Part shown: positions 35,820 to 54,557 of the stretch, in pieces
Position numbering within the stretch: position 1 is the first letter of the stretch
Layout of the letters: each line of letters starts with the position of its first letter
IMG/VR virus record: IMGVR_UViG_3300001846_000239
Location: 1 to 64,000 of that record
Source: a virus
Strand: one strand, 5' to 3'
Length of the DNA stretch: 64,000 bases
Program-made: the position numbers and the translations under genes
The notes under the pieces: generated by a model
What the model saw: only the letters and a program-made list of their open reading frames with translations
The model's database searches: none
What the model was told of the DNA's origin: nothing

Positions 35820-35848
35820 TGTACAAATCCAATTCATCGTGTTATAAT
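35820..35848 (+). promoter_or_regulatory. Early promoter opening the nucleotide-metabolism island
   Basis: TGTACA (35820-35825), 17-nt spacer, TATAAT (35843-35848). No other promoter of this class is seen until 42003. Confidence 0.85.
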
Positions 35849-35879: not shown

Positions 35880-36182
35880 ATGAAGTTTGACGAAGGTAAA
35901 GCTCCATTAGCTTTAATTCCACCAGAAGCATTACTCGAAATCGCTGAAGTGTTTGGCTTCGGTGCTGAAAAGTATGGCGTAAACAATTGGCGTATCGATG
36001 GCGATACAAGTAAGTTGCGCACATATTCATCTATTCAGCGACATCTTAATGCATGGCATAGTGGCGAAGATCTAGATCCAGAATCTGGTATGAGTCACTT
36101 GGCACACGCCGCAACACAATTAATGATTCTAATGATTCATACATTAGAACATCCAGAAGTAGACGATAGGTATGGCAAATGA
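35880..36182 (+). CDS. dATP/dGTP diphosphohydrolase-like protein (DUF5664/MazZ-like)
   Basis: 100 residues. KFDEGKAPLALIPPEALLEIAEVFGFGAEKYGVNNW and RHLNAWHSGEDLDPESGMSHLAHAATQL follow the DUF5664 pattern (D-x-G-K...L-I-P...G-A-x-K-Y...N-W...R-H...G-E-x-x-D-x-E-S-G-x-x-H-x-x-H), whose family includes MazZ of phage S-2L. MazZ acts with PurZ in 2-aminoadenine genomes; no purZ is seen in this window. It overlaps the next gene by 4 nt. Confidence 0.7.
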   Translation: MKFDEGKAPLALIPPEALLEIAEVFGFGAEKYGVNNWRIDGDTSKLRTYSSIQRHLNAWHSGEDLDPESGMSHLAHAATQLMILMIHTLEHPEVDDRYGK

Positions 36183-36829
36183 ATATACGTGATATAAGAA
36201 ACCACTTTAGACAAGAACTCTTAAACAAGAATTTTACTGTTGATCGGAATGGCAGTAAGACGATTGAATTGTTGGGTGCGTCCTTTCATGCAACCGAACC
36301 GGCTATTTTTGGTACACCTAATCAAGAATATATTGATGCTGAAATTGCATGGTATGAATCGCAATCGACAAATATCTATGATATCTTTATTGACAAAGAT
36401 CCACCAAAGGCATGGCAAATGACCGCCAATCGTCATGGTGAGATTAACTCGAATTATGGCCATCTTATTTTTAGCGATAAGTATAATAACCAGTTTGAAC
36501 AAGTAGTTAACGAGCTACGTAAAAACAAAGATTCACGTCGAGCTTCTATGATCTATACTCGTCCATCTATTTGGCTTGAGTATAATGATCAAAACAAGAA
36601 TGACTATATTTGTACAAATTCTGTTACATATTATATCCGCGACAATGAATTACATTGTGTGGTACAGATGCGTTCTAATGATGTTATCTTCGGATATCGT
36701 AATGATTATGCATGGCAAGAATATGTACTATGCACATTGGCTGATGAACTTGGAGTCGATGACGGTGAAATTTATTGGCAAGTTCAAAATTTACATGTCT
36801 ATGAACGACACTTTGATTTGGTAGAATAA
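36179..36829 (+). CDS. Thymidylate synthase-family enzyme, dCMP-type (possible dCMP hydroxymethylase)
   Basis: 216 residues. Nucleophile Cys145 in ICTNS, then MRSNDVIFGYRNDYAW, and QNLHVYERH (TS H-x-Y). At the position of the TS Asn that reads dUMP (LPFN in TS) this protein has Asp176 (G-Y-R-N-D). The same Asn-to-Asp change distinguishes T4 dCMP hydroxymethylase. With a separate ThyX at 45221 for dTMP, a role in making a modified pyrimidine is plausible. Short for the family (T4 gp42 is 246 aa). Confidence 0.7.
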   Translation: MNIRDIRNHFRQELLNKNFTVDRNGSKTIELLGASFHATEPAIFGTPNQEYIDAEIAWYESQSTNIYDIFIDKDPPKAWQMTANRHGEINSNYGHLIFSDKYNNQFEQVVNELRKNKDSRRASMIYTRPSIWLEYNDQNKNDYICTNSVTYYIRDNELHCVVQMRSNDVIFGYRNDYAWQEYVLCTLADELGVDDGEIYWQVQNLHVYERHFDLVE

Positions 36830-37317
36830 TGGAAAATTATAACAAACGGCCTGGCGGCCAATGGGCAGTCGCAAACATATACAAGTGGGATAAACGCTAT
36901 TTAGATTTAGCGGAACATATTTCCACTTGGTCTAAAGATCCTTCACGTAAAGTAGGAGCTGTCGCTGTTGGTTCTAAAGGTCAAGTTTTAGCACAAGGTT
37001 ATAATGGTTTTCCTCGTGGAATCTCAGATGATGATTCCATGTATGAAAATAAAGTAACTAAATATCAGTATGTCGTTCATGCTGAAATGAATTGTATTTA
37101 CAATGCTACATATAACGGCACATCACTTGATGGAGCAACTATGTACATTTATGGATTACCAGTTTGTTCCGAATGCGCAAAAGGCATTATTCAAGTCGGA
37201 ATTAAACGAGTGGTAACACGCGAGCTCGATGATACAATGCCAGAACGCTGGGTTGAATCGACTCAATTGACTAAACGAATGTTTGAAGAGGCTAATATAG
37301 TTTATGAGTTCATCTAA
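36829..37317 (+). CDS. cd: dCMP deaminase
   Basis: 162 residues. Zinc-site motif HAEMN (His84, Glu86) and Cys113-x-x-Cys116 in PVCSECAKG; SKDPSRKVGAVAV and GYNGFPRG are typical of deoxycytidylate deaminases. It produces dUMP from dCMP. It starts 1 nt inside the stop of the TS-family gene. Confidence 0.92.
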   Translation: MENYNKRPGGQWAVANIYKWDKRYLDLAEHISTWSKDPSRKVGAVAVGSKGQVLAQGYNGFPRGISDDDSMYENKVTKYQYVVHAEMNCIYNATYNGTSLDGATMYIYGLPVCSECAKGIIQVGIKRVVTRELDDTMPERWVESTQLTKRMFEEANIVYEFI

Positions 37318-37609
37318 AGCATTAGATCGCTTTGATCTAGAAGAACAAATTATGAAATGTTGGAATGTTACTGAAGATTTGGATATGGTACTAGAACGAG
37401 TACTTGATAGTCCATCATTTGAAGGTATGCCACCAGAACTAGCAGATAAAATTGCTAATATTTTAATTGGTATGAAAGAGTTGTACGAAATGAGGTTTGA
37501 AAAACTTTGGGACACGTTTGAAACAATGGTAGAACAAGGTCAATTCAAATTTGATTACTCAGAGATTAACCAGTATAAGTATCTAGCGGATAATGGCAAC
37601 TGCGGGTAA
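37304..37609 (+). CDS. Conserved hypothetical protein (101 aa)
   Basis: 101 residues, acidic and helical: LDRFDLEEQIMKCWNVTEDLDMVLERVLD, then ADKIANILIGMKELYEMRFEKLWDTFE. Proteins of this pattern are widespread in marine T4-like phages with no assigned function. It overlaps the dCMP deaminase gene by 14 nt, and the two tRNA genes follow. Confidence 0.7.
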   Translation: MSSSKALDRFDLEEQIMKCWNVTEDLDMVLERVLDSPSFEGMPPELADKIANILIGMKELYEMRFEKLWDTFETMVEQGQFKFDYSEINQYKYLADNGNCG

Positions 37610-37627
37610 AGAGGATTAAAAGTTTTT

Positions 37628-37703
37628 GCGCCCGTAGTTCAGTGGATAGAACAACGGTCTTCTAAACCGTAGGTCACAGGTTCGAATCCTGTCGGGCGCG
37701 CCA
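37628..37703 (+). tRNA. tRNA-Arg (anticodon UCU)
   Basis: 76 nt. Acceptor GCGCCCG with CGGGCGC (37693-37699), discriminator G, encoded CCA (37701-37703). D arm GTTC/GAAC; anticodon stem ACGGT/ACCGT with loop CTTCTAA (anticodon TCT); T arm ACAGG/CCTGT with TTCGAAT. It reads AGA, a codon used very often in this phage. Confidence 0.95.
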
Positions 37704-37707
37704 ATTA

Positions 37708-37784
37708 CGGAACATAGCACAGTCTGGTAGTGCACTGCCTTTGGGAGGCAGGGGTCGTAGGTTCGAATCCTACTGTTCCGACCA
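37708..37784 (+). tRNA. tRNA-Pro (anticodon UGG)
   Basis: 77 nt, 4 nt after the tRNA-Arg gene. Acceptor CGGAACA with TGTTCCG (37774-37780), encoded CCA (37782-37784). Anticodon stem CTGCC/GGCAG with loop TTTGGGA (anticodon TGG); T arm GTAGG/CCTAC. It reads CCA and other CCN codons. Confidence 0.95.
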
Positions 37785-37801
37785 ATGAGGAGAAAAGTAA
37801 A

Positions 37802-38011
37802 ATGTTATATTCAGGATATATGTTTAAAATCACGGAAGATGGTTTACTTATGGTTGATAGTCAACCAGATGAAATGATCATGATAGAAAGTACTCCATTT
37901 AGTGTTGGAGATACCTTCGTATTAACACAAACAACAGAAGGTAATATGTTTTTTAGGAAAACACAACAACCGCAACAAATACCTTTAGAAATTGAGGGAT
38001 GGGAATGGTAA
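37802..38011 (+). CDS. Small hypothetical protein after the tRNAs
   Basis: 69 residues from the ATG at 37802 with an upstream GAGGAGAAA; an in-frame start further upstream would lie inside the tRNA-Pro gene. The beta-rich sequence (GYMFKITEDGLLMVDSQPDE, then FSVGDTFVLTQTTEG) resembles a small barrel. Family not recognised. Confidence 0.6.
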   Translation: MLYSGYMFKITEDGLLMVDSQPDEMIMIESTPFSVGDTFVLTQTTEGNMFFRKTQQPQQIPLEIEGWEW

Positions 38012-38190
38012 GTAAAAATGATATTACAGGAGATTCAATTAAATCCAAAACGTTATCACAACAAGGAAGAGATAACTGGGATCGAATCTTCGGTAAAAAA
38101 GATAAACCAAGTGCAGTAGACGACTGCGCAACAAGCAAGGAAGAAAGTGCAATTAATGAAATTGAAAAAAGAACTGAAAAGAATGGCTGA
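38005..38190 (+). CDS. Small conserved phage protein (RDNWDRIFGKK motif)
   Basis: 61 residues from the ATG at 38005, with GAGGGA at SD distance; an ATG at 37999 is an alternative. The core NDITGDSIKSKTLSQQGRDNWDRIFGKK is a recurrent short phage protein pattern of unknown function. It overlaps both neighbours. Confidence 0.6.
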   Translation: MVSKNDITGDSIKSKTLSQQGRDNWDRIFGKKDKPSAVDDCATSKEESAINEIEKRTEKNG

Positions 38191-38434
38191 GTTTACAACA
38201 CCAAAACAGACTTTAGACTGGTATGTAAAGTGGGTTGCATCTATTTTTGTACTGGCTGCAATGTCATTGCGAGGAATTGAAGGATTACAATTATGGGACC
38301 TTTTATTGTCCTCTATTGGTATTCTATTATGGTTATGGGTTTCTATTTTATGGAAAGACCGCGCATTAATTCTACTTAATGGGGTAGGATTAATCTTTTT
38401 GGCTAAGAACTTTTTTGCGACACTTATGATATGA
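38183..38434 (+). CDS. Small membrane protein, about three transmembrane segments
   Basis: 83 residues from the ATG at 38183. Hydrophobic stretches VKWVASIFVLAAMSL, LLLSSIGILLWLWVSI and ALILLNGVGLIFLAKNFF give about three membrane passes with short loops. The upstream in-frame extension is hydrophilic and overlaps the previous gene. Function unknown; similar small membrane proteins recur in marine myophages. Confidence 0.6.
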   Translation: MAEFTTPKQTLDWYVKWVASIFVLAAMSLRGIEGLQLWDLLLSSIGILLWLWVSILWKDRALILLNGVGLIFLAKNFFATLMI

Positions 38435-38844
38435 GAGTAGGAATAACTTTTTCTAGTTTTGATTTATTACATGCAGGTCATGTACAAATGCTACGTGAAG
38501 CAAAGAGTCAATGTGATTATCTAATATGCGGATTACAATATGATCCATCAATAGATAGACTAGAAAAAAATCAACCAGTACAATCGATGGTTGAAAGATA
38601 TACACAATTGAATGCTATTAAATATGTAGATGAAATTATTCCTTATATGTTTGAGCACGAAGTTGTAGATATTCTGAGTCTATATAAACCAGACGTAAGA
38701 ATTTTAGGTGACGAATACAGACACCAAGATTTTACTGGAAAAGAATTATGTCAACAATATAATATAGAATTATATTTTAATAGTAGACGTCATAGATTCA
38801 GTACAACTAACTTGAGACAAGATATACAAAATGCAAAAAACTAA
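38431..38844 (+). CDS. Cytidylyltransferase-like nucleotidyltransferase
   Basis: 137 residues. DLLHAGHVQML (HxGH at 14-17) opens a Rossmann nucleotidyltransferase; the later STTNLR resembles the (I)SST-x-x-R signature. The size fits TagD/GCT-like glycerol-3-phosphate cytidylyltransferases. It probably activates a small phosphorylated compound with CTP or ATP; the substrate is unknown. It overlaps neighbours on both sides within the island. Confidence 0.75.
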   Translation: MRVGITFSSFDLLHAGHVQMLREAKSQCDYLICGLQYDPSIDRLEKNQPVQSMVERYTQLNAIKYVDEIIPYMFEHEVVDILSLYKPDVRILGDEYRHQDFTGKELCQQYNIELYFNSRRHRFSTTNLRQDIQNAKN

Positions 38845-39979
38845 ATATTATTATGACTTTTTGAAGTACTTCCAGTTGGCCAAAGATCAACAAGAAAAGT
38901 GTAATGTTCCTAATTTTATGCCTCATACTGAAAGTGGCATGAATGATGATCTTATGGAACAAGTTGAACTATATGATGTAGTCGAAAGAAAATATGCAGG
39001 TTTTTCACAAATCGTAAATGACATATTTTATGGTTGGACTGATAAACATCCTTATTGGGATCGAATGCAAGCTGGTAAAGCAACTTCTCAAAGAGAACTC
39101 GTTGCACAAAATTGGACTGGACGTCAACATACACTAGAAACCTGGTTGTATCTTTTTATTCTACATAGAGTAACCGGTTCAGCAATTAACTATGGAACTA
39201 AACCTTCCGGATATCATAACACATTATTATTCAAGCTTCATTTAGCCGATGATATTGAAGCTATGAAAAAGATTATCAAAGCTGAAGGTAAGATGGGTAA
39301 ACCTTTCTATACCTCTATCGGATATCAATTCCCAGCATTTCCAAAACCGACAAATGATTTTAAGAAAGGTGGTGATTACTATCTCTGTGAATATGCTCCT
39401 AGATTAGCATGTGATCTTGCACGATATTTAGAAACACCTGGTAAAAAAGATCTACGTCAGATCGGTGAATTTATGCTCAACTGGAATGTTGAAAATGGAC
39501 TAAGACAATACAAGTTTCAATACGCGGCTGTTGTCGCAGATGTTGCTGATTGGTTTCCAGAATATGTGAATAAAGAAAGTCTATTTTATTATGGAACAAA
39601 CGCAGTTGAGTGTATTTCATATCTTGCTGAAAATGATCAACGATTAAAGAAGGAAGCTTTCCTTGATGAAGTAATGATGAACATTTATAAAGATACAGGA
39701 AGTGTACCATATAATGCAGAAGATGTATGTTGTGATTATATTAGATGGGTAGAAAATTATATTAAACCCGGTGACGATTATGCGCATCTTGATTTTGACA
39801 AAGTATGGTCTAGCAGTGATATTAAAGATCATCCACGTGGACGTCAAAAAGCAATGTTGGATTTAGGACTTGTAGAAACATTTAACGGCATGACTTCACA
39901 TCCTTCGGATTTTAAAATACTAAATGATAATGGTCTAACTGTTGAACAATATCAAAGCATGGTGAATAATGGCTCATAA
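38831..39979 (+). CDS. Putative DNA base-hypermodification protein (aGPT-PPlase/HMUDK-like helical family)
   Basis: 382 residues, mostly helical. Distinctive blocks: RELVAQNWTGRQHTLETWLYLFILHRVTGSAINYG, then GYHNTLLFKLHLADDIEAM, GGDYYLCEYAPRLACDLARYL, and DVCCDYIRWVENYI. I associate this layout with the alpha-glutamyl/putrescinyl thymine pyrophosphorylase clade 3 group linked to hypermodified phage DNA, but only from pattern memory. Neighbours (TS-family enzyme, cytidylyltransferase, PLP enzyme) support a modification role. It could also be an unrelated conserved phage protein. Confidence 0.45.
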   Translation: MQKTKYYYDFLKYFQLAKDQQEKCNVPNFMPHTESGMNDDLMEQVELYDVVERKYAGFSQIVNDIFYGWTDKHPYWDRMQAGKATSQRELVAQNWTGRQHTLETWLYLFILHRVTGSAINYGTKPSGYHNTLLFKLHLADDIEAMKKIIKAEGKMGKPFYTSIGYQFPAFPKPTNDFKKGGDYYLCEYAPRLACDLARYLETPGKKDLRQIGEFMLNWNVENGLRQYKFQYAAVVADVADWFPEYVNKESLFYYGTNAVECISYLAENDQRLKKEAFLDEVMMNIYKDTGSVPYNAEDVCCDYIRWVENYIKPGDDYAHLDFDKVWSSSDIKDHPRGRQKAMLDLGLVETFNGMTSHPSDFKILNDNGLTVEQYQSMVNNGS

Positions 39980-40844
39980 TAAACACGTAGAAGATGGATT
40001 TAATAAAGATATTGGGTTAATGCAACCTGATGAAGCAAAGCAATATTACCTAGATCTAGCTAAAGATTGGGAAGATCCGAATCCAGCTCCAGTTGAAGTA
40101 ATTCATGATGGAGTTCGTGTTATTAGAGATGATATGATCGTCGGATCTAAAACACGTGGTGGTGATTGTCTAATTAGTACAATTAAAGAAGATACAATTG
40201 CGTATGTTCAACCACGTACAGGTTTGGCCGGTGTGAGTATTTTAGATGTAGCAAAACGTCATGGTAAAAAAGTACGACTGTATATGCCATCAAGTAAAAA
40301 GATTTCTCATCATCAAGCATGTTGTATTGAACAAGGCGCTGAAGCAAGTTTTCATCGAATCGCAGCAATGCCTAATCTAAACAAAATCGCATTAGAAGAT
40401 TCTAAGAAGAACGGATATTACTTTGTTCCTCTTGGTCTAAAACATGAAATGGTAACTGCGGGTTTAGTAAAGGTTGCGAGTGCAATTAAAGAACCCGATG
40501 AAGTTTATGTGGCTACATCAACTGGCGTTCTAACACGAGCACTTCAAATAGCATGGCCTAATGCGAAGTTTGTTTCAGTAGCAGTATCTAGAAATATGAA
40601 AGCAGGTGAGTTGGGTAGAGCTGAAGTGATTAGTGAACCTAAAGCTTTTACCGCATCAGAGAGTAAAGAAAACTTACCACCATTTCCATGCATTGATACT
40701 TATGACGGAAAAGTATGGAAATTTATTCCAAAGAATAGCGACAAAGATATTCTATTTTGGAACGTAGGTCCCGAACCTACATTACATGATGAAACACTAT
40801 ATGAAACTGTTGACTCTTATAGAGATTGGGATAAGAATTTATGA
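39969..40844 (+). CDS. PLP-dependent enzyme, ACC deaminase / D-cysteine desulfhydrase-like
   Basis: 291 residues. GSKTRGGDCLIS (Lys61) aligns with the PLP-lysine segment GNKTRKLEYL of fold-type II enzymes. Then VQPRTGLAGVSILDVAKRHGKKVRLYMPS gives the cofactor-phosphate-side Rossmann layout, and EVYVATSTGVLTRAL a Ser/Gly-rich phosphate loop. It probably acts on a small amino acid. PLP enzymes of this kind are rare in T4-like phages; in this island it may supply or attach an amino-acid-derived group. It overlaps both neighbours. Confidence 0.65.
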   Translation: MAHNKHVEDGFNKDIGLMQPDEAKQYYLDLAKDWEDPNPAPVEVIHDGVRVIRDDMIVGSKTRGGDCLISTIKEDTIAYVQPRTGLAGVSILDVAKRHGKKVRLYMPSSKKISHHQACCIEQGAEASFHRIAAMPNLNKIALEDSKKNGYYFVPLGLKHEMVTAGLVKVASAIKEPDEVYVATSTGVLTRALQIAWPNAKFVSVAVSRNMKAGELGRAEVISEPKAFTASESKENLPPFPCIDTYDGKVWKFIPKNSDKDILFWNVGPEPTLHDETLYETVDSYRDWDKNL

Positions 40845-41080
40845 ACCAAGAAGCCTTGATTATAACAATGGAAGAATGTGGTGAGTTGATCCAAGCATGT
40901 AGTAAAGTTATAAGATCAAAAGGTGATACAAAGTATATACATAATCTGCAAGATGAAATCGGTGATGTGATGTGTATGATCGAAATCCTTAAGAAACATA
41001 ACTTTGTAACTGATGAACAAATTGAAAATCGCATAGAAGTAAAAATGAACAAATTGAAAAAGTGGAGCACTTTATTATGA
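40841..41080 (+). CDS. Small MazG-like NTP pyrophosphatase
   Basis: 79 residues. ITMEECGELIQACSKVIR (E-E-x-x-E-x-x-Q) and NLQDEIGDVMCMIEIL (E-x-x-D) form the classic MazG metal site. It is the third nucleotide-pyrophosphatase-like gene in the window (with 33121 and 35880). It overlaps neighbours by 4 nt on both sides. Confidence 0.8.
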   Translation: MNQEALIITMEECGELIQACSKVIRSKGDTKYIHNLQDEIGDVMCMIEILKKHNFVTDEQIENRIEVKMNKLKKWSTLL

Positions 41081-42030
41081 TAACCGGAACTTTTAGTAAA
41101 ATACCTAAAAAGAAAAATAGTCATGGTTATGGTTGGGCAAGAACCTGGTCAGAAAATCTAGGAGTCGGTATTAATCATGAAGGTGATTTTACCGAAGTTT
41201 TATATTTAGATCATGGAGTTAATTTTGGAGGATCTCTAAACTTATTCGGAGGTTTTACTCCAGACCTTGAACGTAGAATTAACAACTTTCTAAAAGCACG
41301 ATACGTATATTCACTAGATATTGATATGCCAGATTATGGTGAAATGTTAAAGAAAAGAAAGGATGTAGTAGACAAAGGATGGTGTGATCTAGTTTCAGCC
41401 AAATGTAAATCAGCAAAGACTCTAAAATCTACCGATATCTCTGAACTGAGATGGTTAACTATCGGTGATTCTCATACTGCCGCATACGCAAAAGATAGAT
41501 CTATGGTAATAAAAACTAATGGATTGACACTCAATGGTCAAATCAGAACTGCATTTGATTATGTCACGGACCACATTCAACAATGTATGCCTTCAGGTGT
41601 TACAATGTCATTTGGTAATATAGATATTAGGCATCACGTTTGCAGACTCGGTGTAGATATCGAAGGAATGCTAATTGCTTGGAAAAAGTATGGTGATAGA
41701 CTAGAAGATCGTGGTATTATTGTCGAATATGCAACACCATGGCCAATCGAATACGAAGAGAGAAAACTACCTAAAACTGGTTATTATAAAGGTCAACCGT
41801 TTTGGGGAACTCGCGATGAAAGAATCAACGTCTTAAATAAATGGATTTCAATTATGGATGATCTAGGTATGAAAAGGGTTGAATATCCATCGGAATGGCT
41901 CACTATGGATGGTGAGAAATATGCCAAGGATATTATGGAAAGCGTGTCATCTGTACACTTATCTCCTGAATGTTATAGAAGAAAAAATTGGGGAATTAAC
42001 TGTGTACAATTAACAGATTTCATGTTATAA
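41077..42030 (+). CDS. SGNH/GDSL-like hydrolase family protein
   Basis: 317 residues from the ATG at 41077, which overlaps the previous stop (ATGA); a GTG at 41062 is less likely. LRWLTIGDSHTAAY (GDSHT at 130-134) is SGNH block I, SFGNIDIRHHVCR fits block III, and SSVHLSPECY fits block V with the His. It may be an acyl or other ester hydrolase or transferase. An early promoter for the next operon overlaps its 3' end. Confidence 0.6.
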   Translation: MITGTFSKIPKKKNSHGYGWARTWSENLGVGINHEGDFTEVLYLDHGVNFGGSLNLFGGFTPDLERRINNFLKARYVYSLDIDMPDYGEMLKKRKDVVDKGWCDLVSAKCKSAKTLKSTDISELRWLTIGDSHTAAYAKDRSMVIKTNGLTLNGQIRTAFDYVTDHIQQCMPSGVTMSFGNIDIRHHVCRLGVDIEGMLIAWKKYGDRLEDRGIIVEYATPWPIEYEERKLPKTGYYKGQPFWGTRDERINVLNKWISIMDDLGMKRVEYPSEWLTMDGEKYAKDIMESVSSVHLSPECYRRKNWGINCVQLTDFML

Positions 42031-42031
42031 T
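42003..42031 (+). promoter_or_regulatory. Early promoter overlapping the 41077 stop codon
   Basis: TGTACA (42003-42008), 17-nt spacer, TATAAT (42026-42031); the -10 contains the TAA stop of the SGNH gene. It drives bS21, uvsX and gene 41. Confidence 0.85.
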
Positions 42032-42062: not shown

Positions 42063-42332
42063 ATGCCAAGTATAAATTTGAAAGCACAACCACGGAAGTT
42101 TCGTAAAGGTAAGAAAAACAACCGGCCTCCACAGGATATGCCGTTTGATGTTGCATTACGAAAGTTCAAAAAGGCTGTAGAAGCTGCAGGTATTCTACAA
42201 GATGTTCGTAGAAAAGAATATTATGAAAAACCAACAGCAAAACGTAAGCGCAAAAAAGCCGAAGCAATCGCGCGCCATAAGAGACAATTAAGAGCTCAAG
42301 AGCAAACACAGTTCGGCAGGAGAAAACGATAA
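42063..42332 (+). CDS. rpsU: Ribosomal protein bS21
   Basis: 89 residues. [49 protein letters not shown] follows bacterial S21 (PFD-x-A-L-R-R-F-K-R...R-R-x-E-x-Y-E-K-P-T-x-x-R-K-R-K). Phage-encoded bS21 is known in some marine phages. It could bias translation initiation by entering 30S subunits. The SD AGAAGGAAA is strong, and it is the first gene of the uvsX operon. Confidence 0.93.
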
Positions 42333-43387
42333 TGTCAGTAATGGACAAACTAAAAAAGAACTCTAAGATTAAAACCTCGGAGGTTCTTAAGGAATCCGTT
42401 TTCTTTAGTGATAAAGAAATGATTCCTACAGATGTACCAATGATCAATGTTGCATTATCAGGCGATCCCGATGGTGGATTAACACCTGGTTTGACAGTAT
42501 TGGCTGGTCCATCTAAGCACTTCAAAACGTCATTCGCTTTATTGATGGCGAGTGCGTATATGAAAAAACATGATGATGCAGTATTACTATTTTATGATTC
42601 AGAATTTGGTTCACCACAATCATACTTTGAATCTTTTGATATCGATACTGGTAGAGTATTACACACTCCGATTACGGATGTGGAACAATTGAAATTTGAT
42701 TTAGTTAATCAATTAGAAAATATTGAACGTAGTGATAAAGTAATTGTTGTTATCGATTCTATTGGTAACCTAGCTTCTAAGAAAGAACTAGAAGATGCAT
42801 TGAATGAAAAATCAGTGGCTGATATGTCTCGAGCTAAAGCACTTAAAGGATTGTTTAGAATGGTAACTCCATATCTAGCAATGAAAAATATTCCTTTGCT
42901 TGCAGTAAACCATACGTATCAAGAGATCGGTTTATTCCCTAAAGCTATCGTATCAGGTGGTACAGGGATTTATTATTCAGCAGATAATATCTGGATTCTT
43001 GGTCGTCAACAACAAAAACAAGGTACCGAAGTAAAAGGTTACAACTTTGTTATTAACGTAGAAAAATCAAGATTTGTAAAAGAGAAATCTAAAATCCCAA
43101 TTAGTGTAACATGGGAAGGTGGTATCGAAACTTATTCGGGTCTACTTGATGTTGCATTGGCTGGTGGTTATGTACAAAAACCAAGTAATGGTTGGTATTG
43201 TAGAGTTGATCAAGACACAAGAGAATTGATTGAACCCAAAGTTCGTGAAAAAGATACATTGACTGCTGCATTCTGGAATCCAATCTTTGAAGAAACTAAT
43301 TTCAAAGAGTTCTTGATCGGTCATTATCAGATCGGACATAAACCATTGTTTGACGTAGAAATCGATTTGGAGCAAGAGGATGGATAG
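42332..43387 (+). CDS. uvsX: Recombinase UvsX
   Basis: 351 residues, RecA-like. Walker A GPSKHFKT at 59-66 has the special T4 UvsX form; VVIDSIGNLASK is the Walker B strand. The N terminus VPMINVALSGDPDGGLTPGLT is typical. It performs strand exchange with UvsY (14055). The start overlaps the bS21 stop and the end overlaps the next gene. Confidence 0.95.
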   Translation: MSVMDKLKKNSKIKTSEVLKESVFFSDKEMIPTDVPMINVALSGDPDGGLTPGLTVLAGPSKHFKTSFALLMASAYMKKHDDAVLLFYDSEFGSPQSYFESFDIDTGRVLHTPITDVEQLKFDLVNQLENIERSDKVIVVIDSIGNLASKKELEDALNEKSVADMSRAKALKGLFRMVTPYLAMKNIPLLAVNHTYQEIGLFPKAIVSGGTGIYYSADNIWILGRQQQKQGTEVKGYNFVINVEKSRFVKEKSKIPISVTWEGGIETYSGLLDVALAGGYVQKPSNGWYCRVDQDTRELIEPKVREKDTLTAAFWNPIFEETNFKEFLIGHYQIGHKPLFDVEIDLEQEDG

Positions 43388-45220: not shown

Positions 45221-45880
45221 ATGTTTAATGTGCGAGTTGTTTCACACAGTAAACCGGCAATCGGTGTGGAGTTAAAAGATGATTTGTTACAAATGGTTGC
45301 GTATTGCGCAAGAGTATCAAATCCAGGAAATCAAAGCAACGAAGAAACTGCCGAAAAATTAGTCAAGTATTTGATTAAACATCAGCACTGGTCTCCACTA
45401 GAGATGGCCAGTGTCTGCATGGAAATCGAGACCACAAGGGATATTGCTAGACAAATTCTTAGACATCGATCTTTTTCGTTTCAAGAATTTAGTCAGCGAT
45501 ATGCCGATCCAACACAAGATCTAAGCTTTGTTACACGTGAAGCCAGATTACAAGACAATAAGAATAGACAAAACTCATTGTCAATCCCTATTGAAGATTC
45601 AATTCATCATATTTGGGAATCATACCAGGAAGTTATCATTGAGCGATGCAAACACGCTTATGAATGGGCTATCAATGCTGGTATTGCTAAAGAACAGGCT
45701 AGAGCAATTCTGCCTGAGGGACTAACAATGTCTCGTATGTACGTTAATGGAACATTGCGTTCTTGGATTCATTATATCCAATTGAGAGCAGGTAATGGTA
45801 CTCAGAAGGAACATCAGGAGATTGCTAAAGCTTGTGCAGAGGCAATTTATCAGATATTCCCGCTTGATGACGTTATATAA
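45221..45880 (+). CDS. thyX: Flavin-dependent thymidylate synthase ThyX
   Basis: 219 residues. The ThyX signature RHRSFSFQEFSQRY is at 81-94 (R-H-R-x(7)-S), followed by a C-terminal LRAGNGTQKEHQEIA block that contacts FAD and dUMP. It makes dTMP from dUMP, using dUMP from the dCMP deaminase at 36829. Its presence means the TS-family gene at 36179 is not needed for dTMP. Confidence 0.95.
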   Translation: MFNVRVVSHSKPAIGVELKDDLLQMVAYCARVSNPGNQSNEETAEKLVKYLIKHQHWSPLEMASVCMEIETTRDIARQILRHRSFSFQEFSQRYADPTQDLSFVTREARLQDNKNRQNSLSIPIEDSIHHIWESYQEVIIERCKHAYEWAINAGIAKEQARAILPEGLTMSRMYVNGTLRSWIHYIQLRAGNGTQKEHQEIAKACAEAIYQIFPLDDVI

Positions 45881-47065: not shown

Positions 47066-48430
47066 ATGAAAAGTTTTTTATCTTTTGAACCGTTAAACGA
47101 GGCGTCTAAGTTACAACCTAGTCAGCTAAAGAAACCGAATGCTGCAACTGGTGAAGCTCGGATCGATATCCTAGCAAGACTTATTCGAGATGGAAAGCCT
47201 CTTGAATTAGCTAAAGGCGGAACCTTTACTGTAACTGAAGTTGAAGATGCCTTGGCGCAAATTGAAATCTTTAAAAAACTTGGTAAAGCATTTAATCTCC
47301 ACGGAGACGGTAAAACAATTTCTACTTCCGAACTAGCCAAATCATCAGTATTTGGTGGCGGAAGTGGTGCAGGCGGTGGTACATTAAATACAAAAATCAC
47401 CGAATCACATCAGTGTGTTATATGTCAAGCAGTACTAGATCATGGTGTTCAGTCTAAGGAATACTTCGAAGATCCAAACGTGCTTAAAGATGCATATAAA
47501 AAAGTTGAAGTAGATGCATCCCTTGATGAAATTATGTCAGTTGATGAGACGTGGTTTCATTCGTCATATGAATCCGCTATATTACTTCTTAAAGAAGGTT
47601 ATATTAACAAAAACCAAGTATTCCACAGAAATAGTAAACTGATGAATTTAGTCTATGCACAGAAAAATATCGCATATAAAAATTCTGATCAGAAACCTGT
47701 TAAAGATGATAAGTGGAATCCAGGTGATATATGGGCAATTGAAAAAGGATTTAATGTAAAAGATCTAAACATAGATTCTATTGCCGGTTATAACAAATCA
47801 TTATTACAAGCTTTCGTTGATAGAAAACTAGTTGGTATATCACTCAAGCTTGTGAAAAAGAAAGCAAAAGCTAAAGTATATAATACACAAATTCCCCCCG
47901 ATACAGATGATCATAAGTTAGAAAGAATCACATTCCAAGGCGATAAGCGTGGAACTTTCTGGTCAAATAAAACAGGAACAGTTTTCTTCGATTCTGGAAA
48001 AATGGATTTCAGAGCCGGAACGCTAGGCGGTGCAATCAAAGCAGAAATTATTCTGAAAACAGCACGCGGTGGTGGTGCAGGTTATGGTGTAATGCTAGAT
48101 GCGGCTAAGCAAGTATTTAGAAAAACTATACCTACAAATAAAGCTATAAATAGAACAGCAAAAGATATTACTAAAAATAATAAAAGAGCACTTAGTGTCT
48201 TTTGGAAGCTATATAGTCATTTTTATAAAAACGACACTTATGAAAACTTTGAGAAAGAAATCAGTAAGAAAGATGTCTATTGGATCGGAGCCAAAATGCA
48301 AAGCTTGTATGTTTTGTATTATGTAGATACAAATACTGGCCCGAAAGCAAATAGATTTATTACTAAACTTGTTAATTACGCTGGATCTAAATTAGAAGAT
48401 TCTAGTGTATATGTTAAGGTGTATGAATAA
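47066..48430 (+). CDS. Large internal-protein candidate with capsid-targeting leader (454 aa)
   Basis: 454 residues. The start MKSFLSFEPLNEA resembles the T4 capsid-targeting leader, with an L-N-E cleavage site at Glu12. The middle contains VFGGGSGAGGG, a Cys pair (HQCVICQ), and long alpha/beta stretches (HRNSKLMNLVYAQKNIA, WNPGDIWAIEKGFNVKDLN). The WNPGDIWAI and Gly-rich SLKLVKKK-type segments recall large conserved proteins of marine myophages, but no enzyme class is recognised. It is first in the array. Confidence 0.65.
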   Translation: MKSFLSFEPLNEASKLQPSQLKKPNAATGEARIDILARLIRDGKPLELAKGGTFTVTEVEDALAQIEIFKKLGKAFNLHGDGKTISTSELAKSSVFGGGSGAGGGTLNTKITESHQCVICQAVLDHGVQSKEYFEDPNVLKDAYKKVEVDASLDEIMSVDETWFHSSYESAILLLKEGYINKNQVFHRNSKLMNLVYAQKNIAYKNSDQKPVKDDKWNPGDIWAIEKGFNVKDLNIDSIAGYNKSLLQAFVDRKLVGISLKLVKKKAKAKVYNTQIPPDTDDHKLERITFQGDKRGTFWSNKTGTVFFDSGKMDFRAGTLGGAIKAEIILKTARGGGAGYGVMLDAAKQVFRKTIPTNKAINRTAKDITKNNKRALSVFWKLYSHFYKNDTYENFEKEISKKDVYWIGAKMQSLYVLYYVDTNTGPKANRFITKLVNYAGSKLEDSSVYVKVYE

Positions 48431-49674
48431 TGAGATCATTTAAAAATTACGTACCGTTACAAGAAGCAGCAAAAAATACTCATATGACTCATATCGAGGA
48501 TTTGATTCTTGACGGTGGTGTTAAGGGGGCGCGCCAAGCTATCATCGCACTCAGGTCGTTGCGAGATATGTTACAAGGTAACGCAAAATCTGCAGTAGAC
48601 GTTACAGTCAAGTGGGACGGTGCCCCCGCCGTATTTGCGGGTGAAGATCCAGAAACTGGAGAATTCTTCGTTGCGAAAAAAGGAATCTTTGCAAAGAATC
48701 CTAAGATTTATAAATCCCATGCTGATATTGATGCAGATACAAGTGGCGATCTAGCTAAAAAATTAAAGCTTGCATTTGATAACCTAAAGGATTTAGGTAT
48801 TAAAGGAGTTATTCAAGGTGATTTTATGTTCGACTCCTCAGATTTAAAAAAGGAGAAGATAAATGGAGTTACTCATATTGTGTTTCATCCTAACACTATT
48901 GCCTATGCAATACCTGTTGACAGTCCTCTTGCTAAGGAGATTAGATCAGCTAAGGTCGGAATTGTTTGGCATACTACATACTCAGGAGCAACATTCGAAA
49001 CGATGAGAGCTGAGTTTGGAAGAGAAATCGTTCCAAAATTAAGAAAATCTAAAAGCGTATGGATGCAAGATGCAACATTACCCGATCTATCTGGTACTGC
49101 TACATTGACAAAAGCTGAAACTGACGAACTCAATAAGAACCTATCTAATGCTGGTAAAATGTTTAAGAAGATTGCAGCTAGCACATTGAAAGATATTGAA
49201 TCGAATAAAGAGCTCAATATGATTATTAATATATACAATAATCGTAAGGTAAGAGAAGGTCAAAGAATCACGGATACAAAGAAACATGCAACCGGCCTTA
49301 TTATGTTTGTGCAAGATCGTTATCAAAAAGAAATCGATAAAAGATCAAGTCAAGCTGGTAAAGATGTACAAATTGCAAAAAGAGACGAATTACTTAAGTT
49401 TTTTGATAAAAAGAATCTAAAAAACTTGCAAAATGTGTTCGATTTGCAAAATTTTGTTATTGATAGCAAATTAATTATTATAAATAAACTAAACAAACTG
49501 AACAAAATTGGGACGTTTGTCAAAACTAAGTCCGGATTTAAGGTAACCAACCCAGAGGGTTTTGTTGCCATAGATCGTATGGAAGGTGGAGCAGTTAAGC
49601 TTGTTGATAGATTAGAATTTTCTACTAACAACTTTAGCAAAGATATTATAAAAGGTTGGGACAATCCTAACTAA
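48430..49674 (+). CDS. RNA ligase-like nucleotidyltransferase with capsid-targeting leader
   Basis: 414 residues. Leader MRSFKNYVPLQEA with L-Q-E (Glu12). Motif I VKWDGAP has Lys61-W-D-G64, the K-x-D-G nucleotidyl-Lys site of ligases; GDFMF (130-134) resembles a motif III/IIIa block; EGFVAIDR (376-383) with VKLV at 389-392 mirrors RNA ligase 1 motif IV EGYVA and motif V (F)K-x-K. It is probably a covalent nucleotidyltransferase; substrate (RNA, tRNA or DNA ends) is unknown. It overlaps the previous gene by 1 nt. Confidence 0.6.
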   Translation: MRSFKNYVPLQEAAKNTHMTHIEDLILDGGVKGARQAIIALRSLRDMLQGNAKSAVDVTVKWDGAPAVFAGEDPETGEFFVAKKGIFAKNPKIYKSHADIDADTSGDLAKKLKLAFDNLKDLGIKGVIQGDFMFDSSDLKKEKINGVTHIVFHPNTIAYAIPVDSPLAKEIRSAKVGIVWHTTYSGATFETMRAEFGREIVPKLRKSKSVWMQDATLPDLSGTATLTKAETDELNKNLSNAGKMFKKIAASTLKDIESNKELNMIINIYNNRKVREGQRITDTKKHATGLIMFVQDRYQKEIDKRSSQAGKDVQIAKRDELLKFFDKKNLKNLQNVFDLQNFVIDSKLIIINKLNKLNKIGTFVKTKSGFKVTNPEGFVAIDRMEGGAVKLVDRLEFSTNNFSKDIIKGWDNPN

Positions 49675-49691
49675 TGGGAACCGAGGATCAG

Positions 49692-50075
49692 ATGAAATCT
49701 TTTAAAGAGCACAGCGCAGAACTATCTGAAGAAAGCGTAGACTTCTCTGAAGCTATGTCTTTGCAGCATAGAATGAAAATGAAAGCTGCATTCAGAAAAA
49801 ATAAAGCAAAGATTGCGCTAGGTAAAAAGAAAGCCGAACGTAAATTAGCGACTCCAGAAAAGCTTCAAAAACGAGCCGAGAGACACGCTCGTGATTTACT
49901 AGTTAAGAAAATCCTTAAGGATAAAGATAAGAGTGATCTATCTTATGCAGGCCGTGAAGGTATCGAAAAGAAATTAAAGAATAAAAAAGCAGCAATCAAA
50001 AAGATTGCTAGAAAACTATTACCTCAAATTAAGAAGGCTGATAGAGCTAAATTAAAACAAAAAGGTGGTGAATAA
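49692..50075 (+). CDS. Highly basic internal-protein candidate with capsid-targeting leader
   Basis: 127 residues from the ATG at 49692, with GAGGA 4 nt upstream; the in-frame ATG at 49674 gives an 18-nt longer, less leader-like start. Leader MKSFKEHSAELSEES contains L-S-E (Glu13). The mature part is Lys/Arg/Ala-rich and helical (ARDLLVKKILKDKDKSD, KKLKNKKAAIKKIARKLLPQ), fitting a DNA-bound internal head protein. Confidence 0.65.
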   Translation: MKSFKEHSAELSEESVDFSEAMSLQHRMKMKAAFRKNKAKIALGKKKAERKLATPEKLQKRAERHARDLLVKKILKDKDKSDLSYAGREGIEKKLKNKKAAIKKIARKLLPQIKKADRAKLKQKGGE

Positions 50076-50079
50076 TATT

Positions 50080-51393
50080 ATGGAATTTAAGAGTTTTAGT
50101 GACTATTTGACGGAACAAAAGGGTGAAATTACTTTTGTATTTGGCCGATTTAATCCACCTACGACAGGACATGAAAAGCTTTTCGAGAAACTAAAGAAAG
50201 TTTCTGGAGGGTCATATCGAATATACGCGTCAAAATCGCAAGATCCAAAAAAGAACCCACTACCATTTAAAGTAAAAATTAAGTTTATGCGCAAAATGTT
50301 TCCTAAGCATGCGCGAAACATTATGGCTGATGCAGATGTAAGAACTGTATTGGATATTGCAGTAAAGCTTTATGATCAAGGGTTTACTAAAGTCCAAATG
50401 GTTGCTGGTAGTGATAGAGTAAAAGAATTTGATACACTATTAAACAAATATAATGGTGTAAAAGCAAGACACGGTTTCTATAATTTTGAAGAAGGTGTTA
50501 AAGTTATTTCAGCTGGCGAAAGAGATCCAGACGCTGAAGGTGTTGCTGGTATGTCGGCCTCAAAATTGAGAGCCTTTGTTGCCGCAGGTGATCTACAAGG
50601 ATTTGCTGATAATTCATTAGAAATTCCAGGTGATGGAATACAAACCTTATACTATGCCTTAAGAAAAGGCATGGGCCTCAAAAAAGAATCAACGAGAAAG
50701 CACATAGAATTACAACCAGTTTCTGAACATAGAGAAAAGTTTGTAGAAGGTTCTCTATTTAAAGCCGGTGATGAAGTTGTGTTAAAAGAAACAAATCAAG
50801 TTGGTATTATCGAAAGATGCGGAACAAACTTTCTTGTAGTTGAGTTCGGTCAATGGAAAAAGAGAGTCTGGTTAGATCAAGTCGAACTTGTAGAAAAGTG
50901 CGGTAGTGATCATAAGAAGCCGGCTAAAGAAGATAAAGAACCACAAAAGCGCAAAGCTGCATATCATAAAGATTTAAGTAAATCTACTCAAGATAAGCGT
51001 CAAGCTCATTTCAATAAGCAAGCAAAAAAAGATGACGATGATCCTAGTGCGTATAAACCTGCACCAGGTGATGCTCAAGCAAAAACAAAGCCATCTAAAC
51101 ATACTAAAAAATATCAACAAATGTTTGGTGAAGAAACTCTTTCACTGGCTGACTTTTTACTTGATGAAGGCCAGGCTGATGCAGCATTAAAGAAAAAAGC
51201 TGAAAAGACTGGTATGCCATTAGGTATTCTAAGAAAGGTATTTGATAGAGGTGTTGCTGCATGGAGAACAGGTCATAGACCTGGAACAAATTCAATTCAA
51301 TGGGGATTAGCGAGAGTTAATTCTTTTGTTACTAAATCAAAAGGTACCTGGGGCGGGGCTGATAAAGACCTTGCTGCTAAAGTAAGGAGTTAA
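50080..51393 (+). CDS. NMN adenylyltransferase-like protein with capsid-targeting leader
   Basis: 437 residues from the ATG at 50080. Leader MEFKSFSDYLTEQ (L-T-E, Glu12). FGRFNPPTTGHEKL (T-x-G-H) and GMSASKLRAFV (S-x-S-x-x-R) are nucleotidyltransferase motifs, as in NadM-like enzymes. A KOW-like barrel follows (GDEVVLKETNQVGIIERCG). The C-terminal KKKAEKTGMPLGILRKVFDRGVAAWRTGHRPGT is a recurrent phage domain (DUF5824-like). Starts further upstream (50065) lack the leader pattern. Confidence 0.7.
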   Translation: MEFKSFSDYLTEQKGEITFVFGRFNPPTTGHEKLFEKLKKVSGGSYRIYASKSQDPKKNPLPFKVKIKFMRKMFPKHARNIMADADVRTVLDIAVKLYDQGFTKVQMVAGSDRVKEFDTLLNKYNGVKARHGFYNFEEGVKVISAGERDPDAEGVAGMSASKLRAFVAAGDLQGFADNSLEIPGDGIQTLYYALRKGMGLKKESTRKHIELQPVSEHREKFVEGSLFKAGDEVVLKETNQVGIIERCGTNFLVVEFGQWKKRVWLDQVELVEKCGSDHKKPAKEDKEPQKRKAAYHKDLSKSTQDKRQAHFNKQAKKDDDDPSAYKPAPGDAQAKTKPSKHTKKYQQMFGEETLSLADFLLDEGQADAALKKKAEKTGMPLGILRKVFDRGVAAWRTGHRPGTNSIQWGLARVNSFVTKSKGTWGGADKDLAAKVRS

Positions 51394-51394
51394 A

Positions 51395-52012
51395 ATGCAA
51401 AGGTTTAAAGATATTAAAGAATTAAAAGGTATAGTTGAAAATTACGACTATATCAACGAAATGACTGATACTCAACTTGACGAGTATGTTAGAGGTTTAA
51501 GCGAAGAACAGCTTGACGAATTAATCGGTAGGTTGGTAAAAGGCGTTGGTAGACTAGCGGCTAAAGGTGCTAAAGCTGGTGGTAGCCTAGCAGTTAAGGG
51601 AGCCAAGGCCGGAGCCAAAAGAATGTCTGCTGACGGTAGAGCCGCTGCTGCTGAAAAGAAAGCTGCTAAACTAGAAAAGAAAAGAAAAGCTTTAGAGCGA
51701 ATCCAAGCTGCGCGTGATAAAATCAGAGCAGAAAAAGAAGCTATTAAAAAGAAAAAAGATTCAATGCCACCAAATACTTTGGCTAAACTAAGAGCGAAAC
51801 TAAAGCAAAAAGTTTCTAAAGTAAATGATGCAGAAAATAAACTAAAAGAATATAAAGAAGAAGACGAGGAAGAAGTAGAAGAGTCTTCAGCTTCATGGGC
51901 TAAGTCTTTAGAGAAGATCGCTAAGCAGAGACAGCTAGATAAAATCTCTGATAAAGATAAAGAAACCTTAATGAAGATTGCTGCAATGATGGCTAAAGAA
52001 AAGAAGAAGTAA
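51395..52012 (+). CDS. Basic/helical internal-protein candidate with capsid-targeting leader
   Basis: 205 residues. The leader MQRFKDIKELKGIVEN offers I-K-E (Glu9) and I-V-E (Glu15). The middle is Gly/Ala/Lys-rich (LAAKGAKAGGSLAVKGAKAG), followed by a long Lys/Glu coiled coil and an acidic EEDEEEVEES stretch. The DEYVRGLSEEQLDELIG helices resemble those of scaffold-associated proteins. SD AAGGAG precedes the ATG. Confidence 0.6.
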   Translation: MQRFKDIKELKGIVENYDYINEMTDTQLDEYVRGLSEEQLDELIGRLVKGVGRLAAKGAKAGGSLAVKGAKAGAKRMSADGRAAAAEKKAAKLEKKRKALERIQAARDKIRAEKEAIKKKKDSMPPNTLAKLRAKLKQKVSKVNDAENKLKEYKEEDEEEVEESSASWAKSLEKIAKQRQLDKISDKDKETLMKIAAMMAKEKKK

Positions 52013-52013
52013 T

Positions 52014-52250
52014 ATGAAATCTTTTAAAGAACAAGCTAATTTAGATGAAGCTCCATTAGTCATGAAAGACTTAGATATGGTTAAGACTTTATTTCATAAA
52101 ATTGAATCAGACTTAGCAAAAAATGTAAGATCCAATAAAAGTGAAAAGAACTGGCCTATTCTAAAGCAATTAGCTAGTATTGCAGGTTATGGTATTACTA
52201 AAAAAGGCCAGACTTCAGGCAAGTCTTACAGATATGATTTAAAAAAATGA
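52014..52250 (+). CDS. Small internal-protein candidate with capsid-targeting leader (78 aa)
   Basis: 78 residues. Leader MKSFKEQANLDEAPL with L-D-E (Glu12). The remainder is basic with a helix (MVKTLFHKIESDLAKNVR) and a Gly/Lys tail (GITKKGQTSGKSYRYDLKK). It overlaps the next gene by 4 nt. Function unknown. Confidence 0.6.
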   Translation: MKSFKEQANLDEAPLVMKDLDMVKTLFHKIESDLAKNVRSNKSEKNWPILKQLASIAGYGITKKGQTSGKSYRYDLKK

Positions 52251-52765
52251 TTACGTTTAAAGACTACATTACTGAGCAAAAAAAGATTAAGTGGCTTAAA
52301 AAGCCCGATGGCTATATTGGTAATAATAAAAAAGTATTTAAACACGTTTCTTCAGATGGTAAGTTTGAGATTCGTTTATCTGGTATGGATAGTTCTCGTA
52401 AGAACAAAGATGGTAGTCAGAAAGTAATGCCTACATTGTTTGATATGAGTGGCCATACACCAAGGCATCCAGTTACAGCATATAAAAATGTAGCTGCAGC
52501 TAAGAAAGATGCTCAAATATGGGCAGATAGACATTGGACTATTACTGAAGGCGAAGGTAAATATAAAGGCGAAACATGGGAAGATGGTTATAAAAGGCGA
52601 GTTGTAAAAACAACCGATCCTGAGCATAAAGAAAAAGGATATAATTGGAGAATCAAAGGCAAAGAAAGACCTGAGATTTCAATTAAATTATATAAACAAA
52701 AACCAGATTTTGCTGAATTTAAAAAGCAAATGAAGCGAGTTGCGGGGCACGAATTCGGTGGATAG
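52247..52765 (+). CDS. Internal-protein candidate with capsid-targeting leader (172 aa)
   Basis: 172 residues. Leader MITFKDYITEQ with I-T-E (Glu10), nearly the T4 MKTYQEFIAEA form. The rest is basic, Lys/Trp/Gly-rich (YIGNNKKVFKHVSSDGKFEIRL, then TITEGEGKYKGETWEDGYKRR) without a recognised domain. It starts overlapping the previous stop (ATGA). Confidence 0.6.
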   Translation: MITFKDYITEQKKIKWLKKPDGYIGNNKKVFKHVSSDGKFEIRLSGMDSSRKNKDGSQKVMPTLFDMSGHTPRHPVTAYKNVAAAKKDAQIWADRHWTITEGEGKYKGETWEDGYKRRVVKTTDPEHKEKGYNWRIKGKERPEISIKLYKQKPDFAEFKKQMKRVAGHEFGG

Positions 52766-53426
52766 TTTTAAAGAACATTATGATATAATGGAAGGTGTTA
52801 ATGATCCTGCTATATTTAAAGCAATATTTTTAGCAGGTGGCCCAGGAAGCGGTAAATCGTTTGTTGTGGGTAAAACATCTTTGATGGCATTAGGATTTAA
52901 ATTAATTAATTCCGATGATGCCTTTGAAAAAGGTTTGAAAAAAGCTGGATTGACAATGAATCCAGAAGATATATTTTCAGTTCAAGGCCAGGAAGTAAGA
53001 GCTAAAGCGAAAGCGCTTACTGGTAAAAAAATGAATATGGCTTTGAGAGGAAGAAACGGCATTGTAATCGATGGTACTGGTAAAGACTATGCTAAGATTA
53101 AAAAGCAAGTTGATATGCTAAGAAATATCGGTTATGCTGTTCATATGATTTTTGTAAATACAGATTTAGAAACAGCTTTAGACAGAAATCAGTCTAGACC
53201 AAGAAGTCTACCTGATGCGGAAGTCGAAAAGATGTGGAAAAATGTACAAAAGAATATCGGTAAATTCCAAGGGCTATTTAGGAATAGACTGATTATTGTT
53301 GATAACTCTAAGGGAGCAGATATTGAAACTGCAACTTTAGAAGCTTATAAAGATATTATGGCATGGTCAAAAAGACCACCCGAAAACGCAATAGCAATTA
53401 AATGGATAAAGAGTCAAACAAAATGA
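52758..53426 (+). CDS. P-loop kinase with capsid-targeting leader (PNK/zeta-toxin-like)
   Basis: 222 residues from the GTG at 52758, which restores a leader VDSFKEHYDIMEG (I-M-E, Glu12). Walker A AGGPGSGKS at 26-34, INSDDAFE (acidic acceptor region), GIVIDGTGKDYAKIKKQVDML, and a lid-like NQSRPRSLP. It could phosphorylate polynucleotide ends, nucleosides or another small target; T4 Pnk and zeta toxins have similar folds. It overlaps the previous gene by 8 nt. Confidence 0.65.
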   Translation: MDSFKEHYDIMEGVNDPAIFKAIFLAGGPGSGKSFVVGKTSLMALGFKLINSDDAFEKGLKKAGLTMNPEDIFSVQGQEVRAKAKALTGKKMNMALRGRNGIVIDGTGKDYAKIKKQVDMLRNIGYAVHMIFVNTDLETALDRNQSRPRSLPDAEVEKMWKNVQKNIGKFQGLFRNRLIIVDNSKGADIETATLEAYKDIMAWSKRPPENAIAIKWIKSQTK

Positions 53427-53632
53427 AAAATTTTAAAACAATAAGAGAAGCCTTGAAGAATCCTTACAAAGGAAAACCAGAACGTGATCTAAAGCGCAAG
53501 CTCGATTCCTTTGAATCGCAACTTCAAGACTTAATTAAAAAGAGTCGAGGACGTCAGCGAAGAGAAATCGAAGGTGAAATCCGAGATATGGAAACAAAAG
53601 TGCAACAGGTTAGAGCTGCACTAAAGGATTAA
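53423..53632 (+). CDS. Small coiled-coil internal-protein candidate
   Basis: 69 residues from the ATG at 53423, which overlaps the kinase stop (ATGA). Leader MKNFKTIREAL with I-R-E (Glu9). The rest is a charged helix (LDSFESQLQDLIKKSRG, then REIEGEIRDMETKVQQVRAAL). Function unknown. Confidence 0.55.
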   Translation: MKNFKTIREALKNPYKGKPERDLKRKLDSFESQLQDLIKKSRGRQRREIEGEIRDMETKVQQVRAALKD

Positions 53633-53636
53633 TATA

Positions 53637-54547: not shown

Positions 54548-54557
54548 GAGAACTAAT

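Follow-up and report, generated by a model that had tools for sequence, protein, structure and literature searches.

We analysed bases 1-64000 of the 112,994-base virus record IMGVR_UViG_3300001846_000239 (hereafter the window) and found a plus-strand gene block (35880-42030) at the position that beta-gt occupies in phage T4. With a probability of roughly two in three, we read this block as a cassette for amino-acid-type hypermodification of 5-hydroxymethylcytosine (5hmC) that replaces glucosylation. That the cassette hypermodifies 5hmC is probable, and an amino-acid origin of the attached group, for which analogy with phages M6 and ViI was our guide, has about an even chance. T4 glucosylates 5hmC by means of alpha-gt and beta-gt. 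To our knowledge, amino-acid-derived hypermodified pyrimidines are known on thymine only, and the cytosine modifications described in the literature cited here are sugars or carbamoyl groups (PMC6024577; PMC12838424; PMC8670742). If true, such a modification on cytosine would extend the chemistry of DNA and would explain how many uncultured T4-like phages could evade restriction without glucosylation. Such DNA enzymes would, in addition, be of practical use in labelling 5hmC.

Position and composition of the cassette

Since counterparts of T4 gp45, gp44, gp62, RegA, gp43, UvsX, and gp41 are present and T4 order is kept, the phage is, judged by these replication genes, T4-like. The T4 gene order 43-42-beta-gt-uvsX-41 recurs in the window, except that the cassette occupies the beta-gt slot, and the last cassette gene ends 32 nucleotides upstream of a small open reading frame (ORF) preceding uvsX. 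An initial annotation, made from the sequence alone, had described the block as a possible DNA-hypermodification island; all of the genes that it named are present on the plus strand in the order it gave, tightly packed, with most neighbors overlapping by 1-19 nucleotides. It had overlooked the position of the block with respect to T4 beta-gt, the small ORFs between the named genes, and the beta-gt-like N-terminal part of the last protein. The features on which our argument turns are as follows:

36179..36829, plus strand: dCMP hydroxymethylase, orthologue of T4 gp42 (PDB 1b49, E 6.6e-66)
38831..39979, plus strand: amino acid:DNA transferase (ADDT)-like helical protein, predicted from its modelled fold to be a 5hmC-DNA transferase; cassette core
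39969..40844, plus strand: fold-type II pyridoxal phosphate (PLP) enzyme (PALP), relative of M6 gp52; predicted tailoring decarboxylase or lyase
41077..42030, plus strand: composite protein with an N-terminal beta-glucosyltransferase-like part (beta-gt-N) and a C-terminal SGNH-motif part
42332..43387, plus strand: uvsX (RecA-like; phmmer with T4 UvsX, E 2e-119)
45221..45880, plus strand: ThyX thymidylate synthase (PF02511, E 6e-45)

The hydroxymethylase and thymidylate supply

The thymidylate synthase (TS)-family protein at 36179 aligned with T4 gp42 (PDB 1b49) over its full length (query residues 1-215 of 216), and its best thymidylate synthase match reached an E value of only 5e-13, against 6.6e-66 for T4 gp42. 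When the window's hydroxymethylase was compared with those encoded beside 38831-family genes, both the active-site Cys145 and the substrate-selecting Asp176 (E. coli TS position 177) were invariant in 54 of 54 proteins, in agreement with the dCMP-type Asp that the initial annotation had read in this enzyme. The M6 dUMP-type enzyme has Asn at this position, and Asp there has been described as a mark of modified-cytosine contigs (PMC8670742). The gp42-type gene was the sole TS-family gene in all eight long contigs carrying it, seven of which also carry ThyX. Considering that jumbo phages mostly carry either TS or ThyX (PMC7824862), and that both occur here, the TS-family enzyme very probably serves 5-hydroxymethyl-dCMP formation, as judged from these sequences. 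ThyX frees this enzyme from dTMP synthesis, and the dCMP deaminase encoded next to it (36829) is the dUMP supply for ThyX.

The ADDT-like protein

For the 38831 protein, sequence searches of Pfam, PHROGs, NCBIfam, and PDB returned no match, nor was there a match among 50,697 sequenced phages; uncultured viral contigs, by contrast, held at least 501 confirmed relatives. An alignment-based AlphaFold model (predicted local distance difference test score, pLDDT, 80.7) was searched with Foldseek against viral models (BFVD). The top match was a 62%-identical "amino acid:DNA transferase" (E 9e-37), followed by two unnamed distant proteins at ranks 2-3 and by a second amino acid:DNA transferase at rank 4 (E 1.2e-4, probability 1.00). 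Next came the HMUDK helical proteins of PhiW-14, SP10, and RSL1, together with aGPT-PPlase, at probabilities of 0.89-0.99 (0.99 for the SP10 HMUDK and 0.97 for Pplase1), and no unrelated named family stood between the ADDT, HMUDK, and Pplase1 matches in the ranking. Compared with PDB structures, the model gave no significant match (glycosylase-fold 3knt, probability 0.44). The protein therefore appears to belong to the ADDT/HMUDK/aGPT-PPlase superfamily by its predicted fold and not by its sequence, hence "ADDT-like"; its placement by the initial annotation in the aGPT-PPlase/HMUDK group stands in the first respect and fails in the second. In an alignment made by eye, with no statistical test, its C-terminal motif, NAEDVCCDYIRWVE, resembles the Glu/Cys motifs of M6 ADDT (QEVETVLCKW), M6 HMUDK (IEHTLCEFDKY), c3 (VEDKTCFFYK; a neighboring protein of related loci, see below), and the C-terminal domain of an Aeromonas phage 44RR2.8t (44RR) protein (CEIACCQFNVFTR).

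The PLP enzyme

Few known phages carry homologues of the PLP enzyme, and M6 and its kin are among them (tblastn to M6, E 5e-3). The tie to hypermodification that the initial annotation had drawn for this enzyme was strengthened by profile comparison, which related it to the M6 enzyme with an hhalign probability of 98%. The C-terminal signature PFP...YDxKaW...FWNxG is common to the family and the M6 enzyme, and across 76 PLP-enzyme proteins the tested signature residues were invariant or nearly so, while the PLP-binding Lys61 (GxK motif) was invariant in all 76. PLP enzymes of M6 and ViI decarboxylate an amino acid after it has been joined to the base. The DNA of M6 and its relatives carries 5-aminoethyl-deoxyuridine (PMC6449724), and a PLP-dependent enzyme is listed in the modification cassette (PMC9476957). 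A PDB sequence search also aligned the PLP enzyme with the EvgA response regulator; this alignment was judged spurious, as the residues it covers are those of the PALP and M6 matches. Three homologues, from Erythrobacter phages R6L and ZS04 and Microcystis phage Mae-JY30 (loci L144, L145, and L146), are annotated as DNA methylases and lie near ParB/sulfiredoxin-like or PAPS-reductase-like genes, perhaps as parts of another DNA modification system.

The composite protein and its fusion in Aeromonas phage 44RR

The T4 beta-glucosyltransferase model PF09198 was weakly matched by 11 of 30 relatives of the composite protein (best E 5.8e-4). A composite-family profile that included cultured-phage members placed the six beta-gt proteins ahead of all decoys (hmmsearch, E 3e-5 to 0.026), and hhalign related the composite and BGT families at 81%, covering only about residues 20-95. 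The C-terminal uridine diphosphate (UDP)-glucose-binding half of beta-gt was not found in the composite protein, the alignment ending near residue 95. The remainder carries an invariant GDSH, G[NS]IDxRxH, and terminal His, i.e., the SGNH pattern, with block III reading G[NS]ID rather than GxND; a PDB search with the SGNH-like protein gave no match. From these motifs and profiles, the protein is likely a beta-gt N-terminal part joined to an SGNH part, so that the SGNH-like hydrolase of the initial annotation may hold for the C-terminal part and would give way to a beta-glucosyltransferase-like assignment in the N-terminal part. Since its relatives begin at MITG, the likely start is ATG 41077 and not GTG 41062. 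Neither T4 alpha-gt (AGT) nor full BGT gave a match above cut-off in the record, although the absence of alpha-gt by PF11440 is weak evidence, the control genomes having given no PF11440 match either.

In 44RR, the composite homologue forms the N-terminal ~335 residues of a 795-residue protein. The remaining 460 residues are PF18723 HMUDK_hel-like (E 9e-4, below cut-off) and are also matched by the M6 HMUDK profile; no 38831 homologue was found in this phage. HMUDK_hel is normally paired with a P-loop kinase. Since the HMUDK_hel-like domain of 44RR is joined to a beta-gt-N/SGNH protein, this analogy suggests that the latter replaces the kinase in activating the hydroxymethyl group. All four tested Straboviridae with a composite homologue (44RR, 25, phiAS4, and IME13) carry gp42. 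Phages 44RR, 31, and 25 carry gene 42 and lack a glucosyltransferase, and whether they bear other modifications was an open question in 2010, when the decoration was listed as unknown (PMC2993671). ORF233c (44RR and 31) and ORF225c (25) are thus candidate modification enzymes, and the proposal is testable in these three cultured phages. In the loci of IME13 and Aeromonas phages 25 and phiAS4 (L234, L236, and L237), a UDP-galactopyranose mutase gene or homologue and an unannotated ~358-residue protein lie near the composite homologue, which suggests galactofuranose-linked hydroxymethylcytosine in these phages.

Conservation and linkage in other viral contigs

Tens of environmental viral contigs carried the hydroxymethylase, ADDT-like, PLP, and SGNH genes as a group. 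Among loci with adequate flank, the SGNH gene was present in 43 of 43 and the PLP gene in 38 of 43, and gp42 lay within 4.5 kb in 40 of 55. Since the four genes were kept together in tens of contigs, their grouping goes beyond chance. The four core proteins were correlated in their pairwise distances (r 0.45-0.73), with none of 1000 permutations as high; such correlation is expected for co-inherited genes, but likewise for any genes of one lineage. The ADDT-like protein was the most conserved, i.e., slowest changing, of the four. The initial annotation had treated the whole island as one pathway, a view that the related loci (~70) did not bear out: the cytidylyltransferase was found in none of them, MazG was nearly always missing, and the dATP/dGTP hydrolase was largely confined to close relatives. 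These three genes and the tRNAs lie outside the conserved core.

A protein of ~330 residues encoded after the ADDT-like gene, c3, occurs in 61 of 104 loci (e.g., L003:1840-2796) and was not found in the window's 113-kb record. Pfam scans of c3 gave chance matches only, and a single-sequence AlphaFold model (L003:1840-2793; pLDDT 38) was discarded. Its C-terminal motif resembles HMUDK_hel, and c3 is perhaps a second member of the superfamily. A UDG-superfamily protein resembling one in the M6 cluster was present at 24 loci. In five loci a C-5 cytosine DNA methylase (cluster c46; L060:11124-12329) lies near the cassette, which is odd if the phage cytosine is already modified at C5.

Proposed pathway and comparison with known systems

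In the pathway that we propose, the gp42 orthologue, identified as such by homology, would make 5-hydroxymethyl-dCMP, and the base would enter DNA in place of cytosine. The beta-gt-N/SGNH protein would then recognize and activate the 5-hydroxymethyl group, and the ADDT-like protein, going by its fold, would attach an amino acid or amine. The PLP enzyme, as its M6 relative suggests, would tailor the product, probably by decarboxylation, to yield a positively charged aminoalkyl group. The modification would protect the phage against restriction and other defences directed at DNA. How activation, attachment, and tailoring are ordered, and by what chemistry they proceed, is offered as a proposal. 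More tentatively, and at somewhat less than an even chance, this would be the first amino-acid-type cytosine hypermodification, in which a beta-gt-derived 5hmC-recognition part and SGNH activation dispense with a P-loop DNA kinase, and ADDT-like transfer and PLP trimming give an aminoalkyl cytosine.

The window shares with the T4 42/beta-gt system a gp42 orthologue, the order 43-42-[tailoring]-uvsX-41, and, where T4 has beta-gt, a protein whose N-terminal part resembles that enzyme; unlike T4, it lacks the UDP-glucose-binding half and an alpha-gt match and encodes ADDT-like and PLP enzymes instead. With M6 (5-aminoethyl-dU) and Salmonella ViI it has in common the combination of a pyrimidine hydroxymethylase, an ADDT/HMUDK-superfamily protein, and a related PLP enzyme, and some relatives of the cassette add a UDG-like protein as in M6. 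However, the base hydroxymethylated in the window is cytosine, not uracil, no HMUDK was matched, and an SGNH/beta-gt-N protein is present in lieu of the expected P-loop kinase. The 5hmC carbamoyltransferase system found by MetaGPA (PMC8670742) likewise combines a gp42-type enzyme with a non-sugar group on 5hmC, but there the enzyme is a carbamoyltransferase, and PF02543 and PF16861 were unmatched in a scan limited to the window's operon proteins. ORF233c of 44RR and ORF225c of phage 25 are composite homologues in cultured gp42 phages without glucosyltransferases (PMC2993671), although the 44RR protein, unlike that of the window, also includes a fused HMUDK-like helical domain, and a 38831 homologue is missing from 44RR. 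Finally, Shewanella phage Thanatos and RB69, in which cytosine is pentosylated, are T4-like and gp42-based and lack the T4 glucosyltransferases, but they carry sugar-nucleotide synthesis and glycosyltransferase genes rather than ADDT-like and PLP genes.

Alternative explanations

Several results weigh against an amino-acid-type 5hmC cassette. A profile comparison of the 38831 family with its supposed superfamily, to which the initial annotation had looked for confirmation, came out negative: PF18723 and PF18724 were unmatched by its 49 members at E values up to 10, and hhalign against M6 ADDT or HMUDK gave probabilities below 1%. The placement of the family would thus rest on one predicted fold, every sequence test failing. 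The SGNH assignment comes from motifs and is marginal in Pfam, with Lipase_GDSL matched in 2 of 30 members, and an HMUDK kinase was not found in the 113-kb record. In the same record, which is possibly incomplete, phmmer recognized neither a T4 gp1 dNMP kinase, to act on 5-hydroxymethyl-dCMP, nor a gp56 dCTPase; it found no denB either. Among the related loci, the PLP gene is missing from some (L034, L048, and L116), and the 104-kb contig behind L070, like several shorter contigs, has the ADDT-like, PLP, and SGNH genes but neither gp42 nor ThyX; these contigs may be incomplete or may use another base.

The simplest alternative is that the phage carries plain 5hmC and that the remaining operon genes serve unrelated nucleotide or host-takeover metabolism. 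MazG, the dATP/dGTP hydrolase, the tRNAs, and the cytidylyltransferase are indeed ordinary phage cargo, and gp42 phages that lack glucosyltransferases might in some cases manage with plain 5hmC (RB69 and JS98 types have been discussed; PMC2993671). We consider this unlikely, given that the ADDT-like, PLP, and SGNH genes stay together across diverged phages, that the ADDT-like protein has changed more slowly than the other core proteins, and that both it and the PLP enzyme have relatives in hypermodification. Somewhat less likely still is a sugar or acyl-sugar modification in which the beta-gt-N/SGNH protein acts in a glycosylation route with the ADDT-like and PLP proteins as accessories. The beta-gt similarity of the composite protein, the UDP-galactopyranose mutase gene or homologue near its homologues in Aeromonas 25, phiAS4, and IME13, and the arabinose of RB69 (PMC6024577) and pentose of Thanatos (PMC12838424), both gp42 phages, would suit such a route; but the composite protein is without the UDP-sugar-binding half of beta-gt, the record has no AGT or full BGT match, and the PLP enzyme and ADDT-like fold indicate amino-acid chemistry.

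Those same two proteins would also fit thymidine hypermodification of the ordinary M6/ViI type. We rejected this explanation, the least probable of those considered, because of Asp176, which marks the hydroxymethylase as the dCMP type, and the presence of ThyX; moreover, HMUDK_hel (PF18723) was unmatched in the record and in seven related contigs. Hardly more credible is the idea that the ADDT-like protein, as a glycosylase-fold enzyme, and the SGNH protein attack unmodified host DNA instead of decorating phage DNA. It draws on the weak resemblance to 3knt (probability 0.44) and on the precedent of denB, which degrades host DNA in T4 gp42 phages (PMC2993671), but the named fold matches are modification enzymes rather than nucleases or glycosylases, and the PLP enzyme is left without a role.

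Other features of the block and window

The remaining features of the block are:

35820..35848, plus strand: promoter-like site TGTACA-17-TATAAT upstream of the block; consensus match only
35880..36182, plus strand: dATP/dGTP diphosphohydrolase N-terminal domain protein (PF18909, E 8e-32); nucleotide pool, peripheral
36829..37317, plus strand: dCMP deaminase (PF00383, E 4e-20; phrog_174, E 2e-45)
37304-37609, 37999-38190, and 38147-38434: small ORFs between the named genes
37628..37703, plus strand: tRNA-Arg (TCT), outside the conserved core
37708..37784, plus strand: tRNA-Pro (TGG), outside the conserved core
38431..38844, plus strand: HldE/TagD-like nucleotidyltransferase, cytidylyltransferase-like (TIGR02199, E 4e-23, below its cut-off)
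40841..41080, plus strand: MazG-like nucleotide pyrophosphohydrolase (PF03819, E 1.8e-4, 22.2 bits, cut-off 22), peripheral
42003..42031, plus strand: second promoter-like site of the same form as that at 35820, at the end of the block

A single early promoter had been proposed at 35820. The match itself is real, but that it is single or early is unproved: a second site lies at 42003, and promoter-like matches in the region are at chance level (58, with 54.3 +/- 6.4 expected). The MazG-like protein is possibly dCTPase-like. The nucleotidyltransferase at 38431-38844, without a homologue in related loci, is perhaps a recent acquisition.

Further downstream in the window (47066-55268) lies a run of genes whose products have MxSFxxYLxE-like N-termini, among them a KxDG ligase-like protein (48430), a cytidylyltransferase (50065), and a P-loop kinase (52740). 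Since these N-termini resemble the T4 capsid-targeting peptides of internal head proteins, the enzymes of this run may be packaged in the head.

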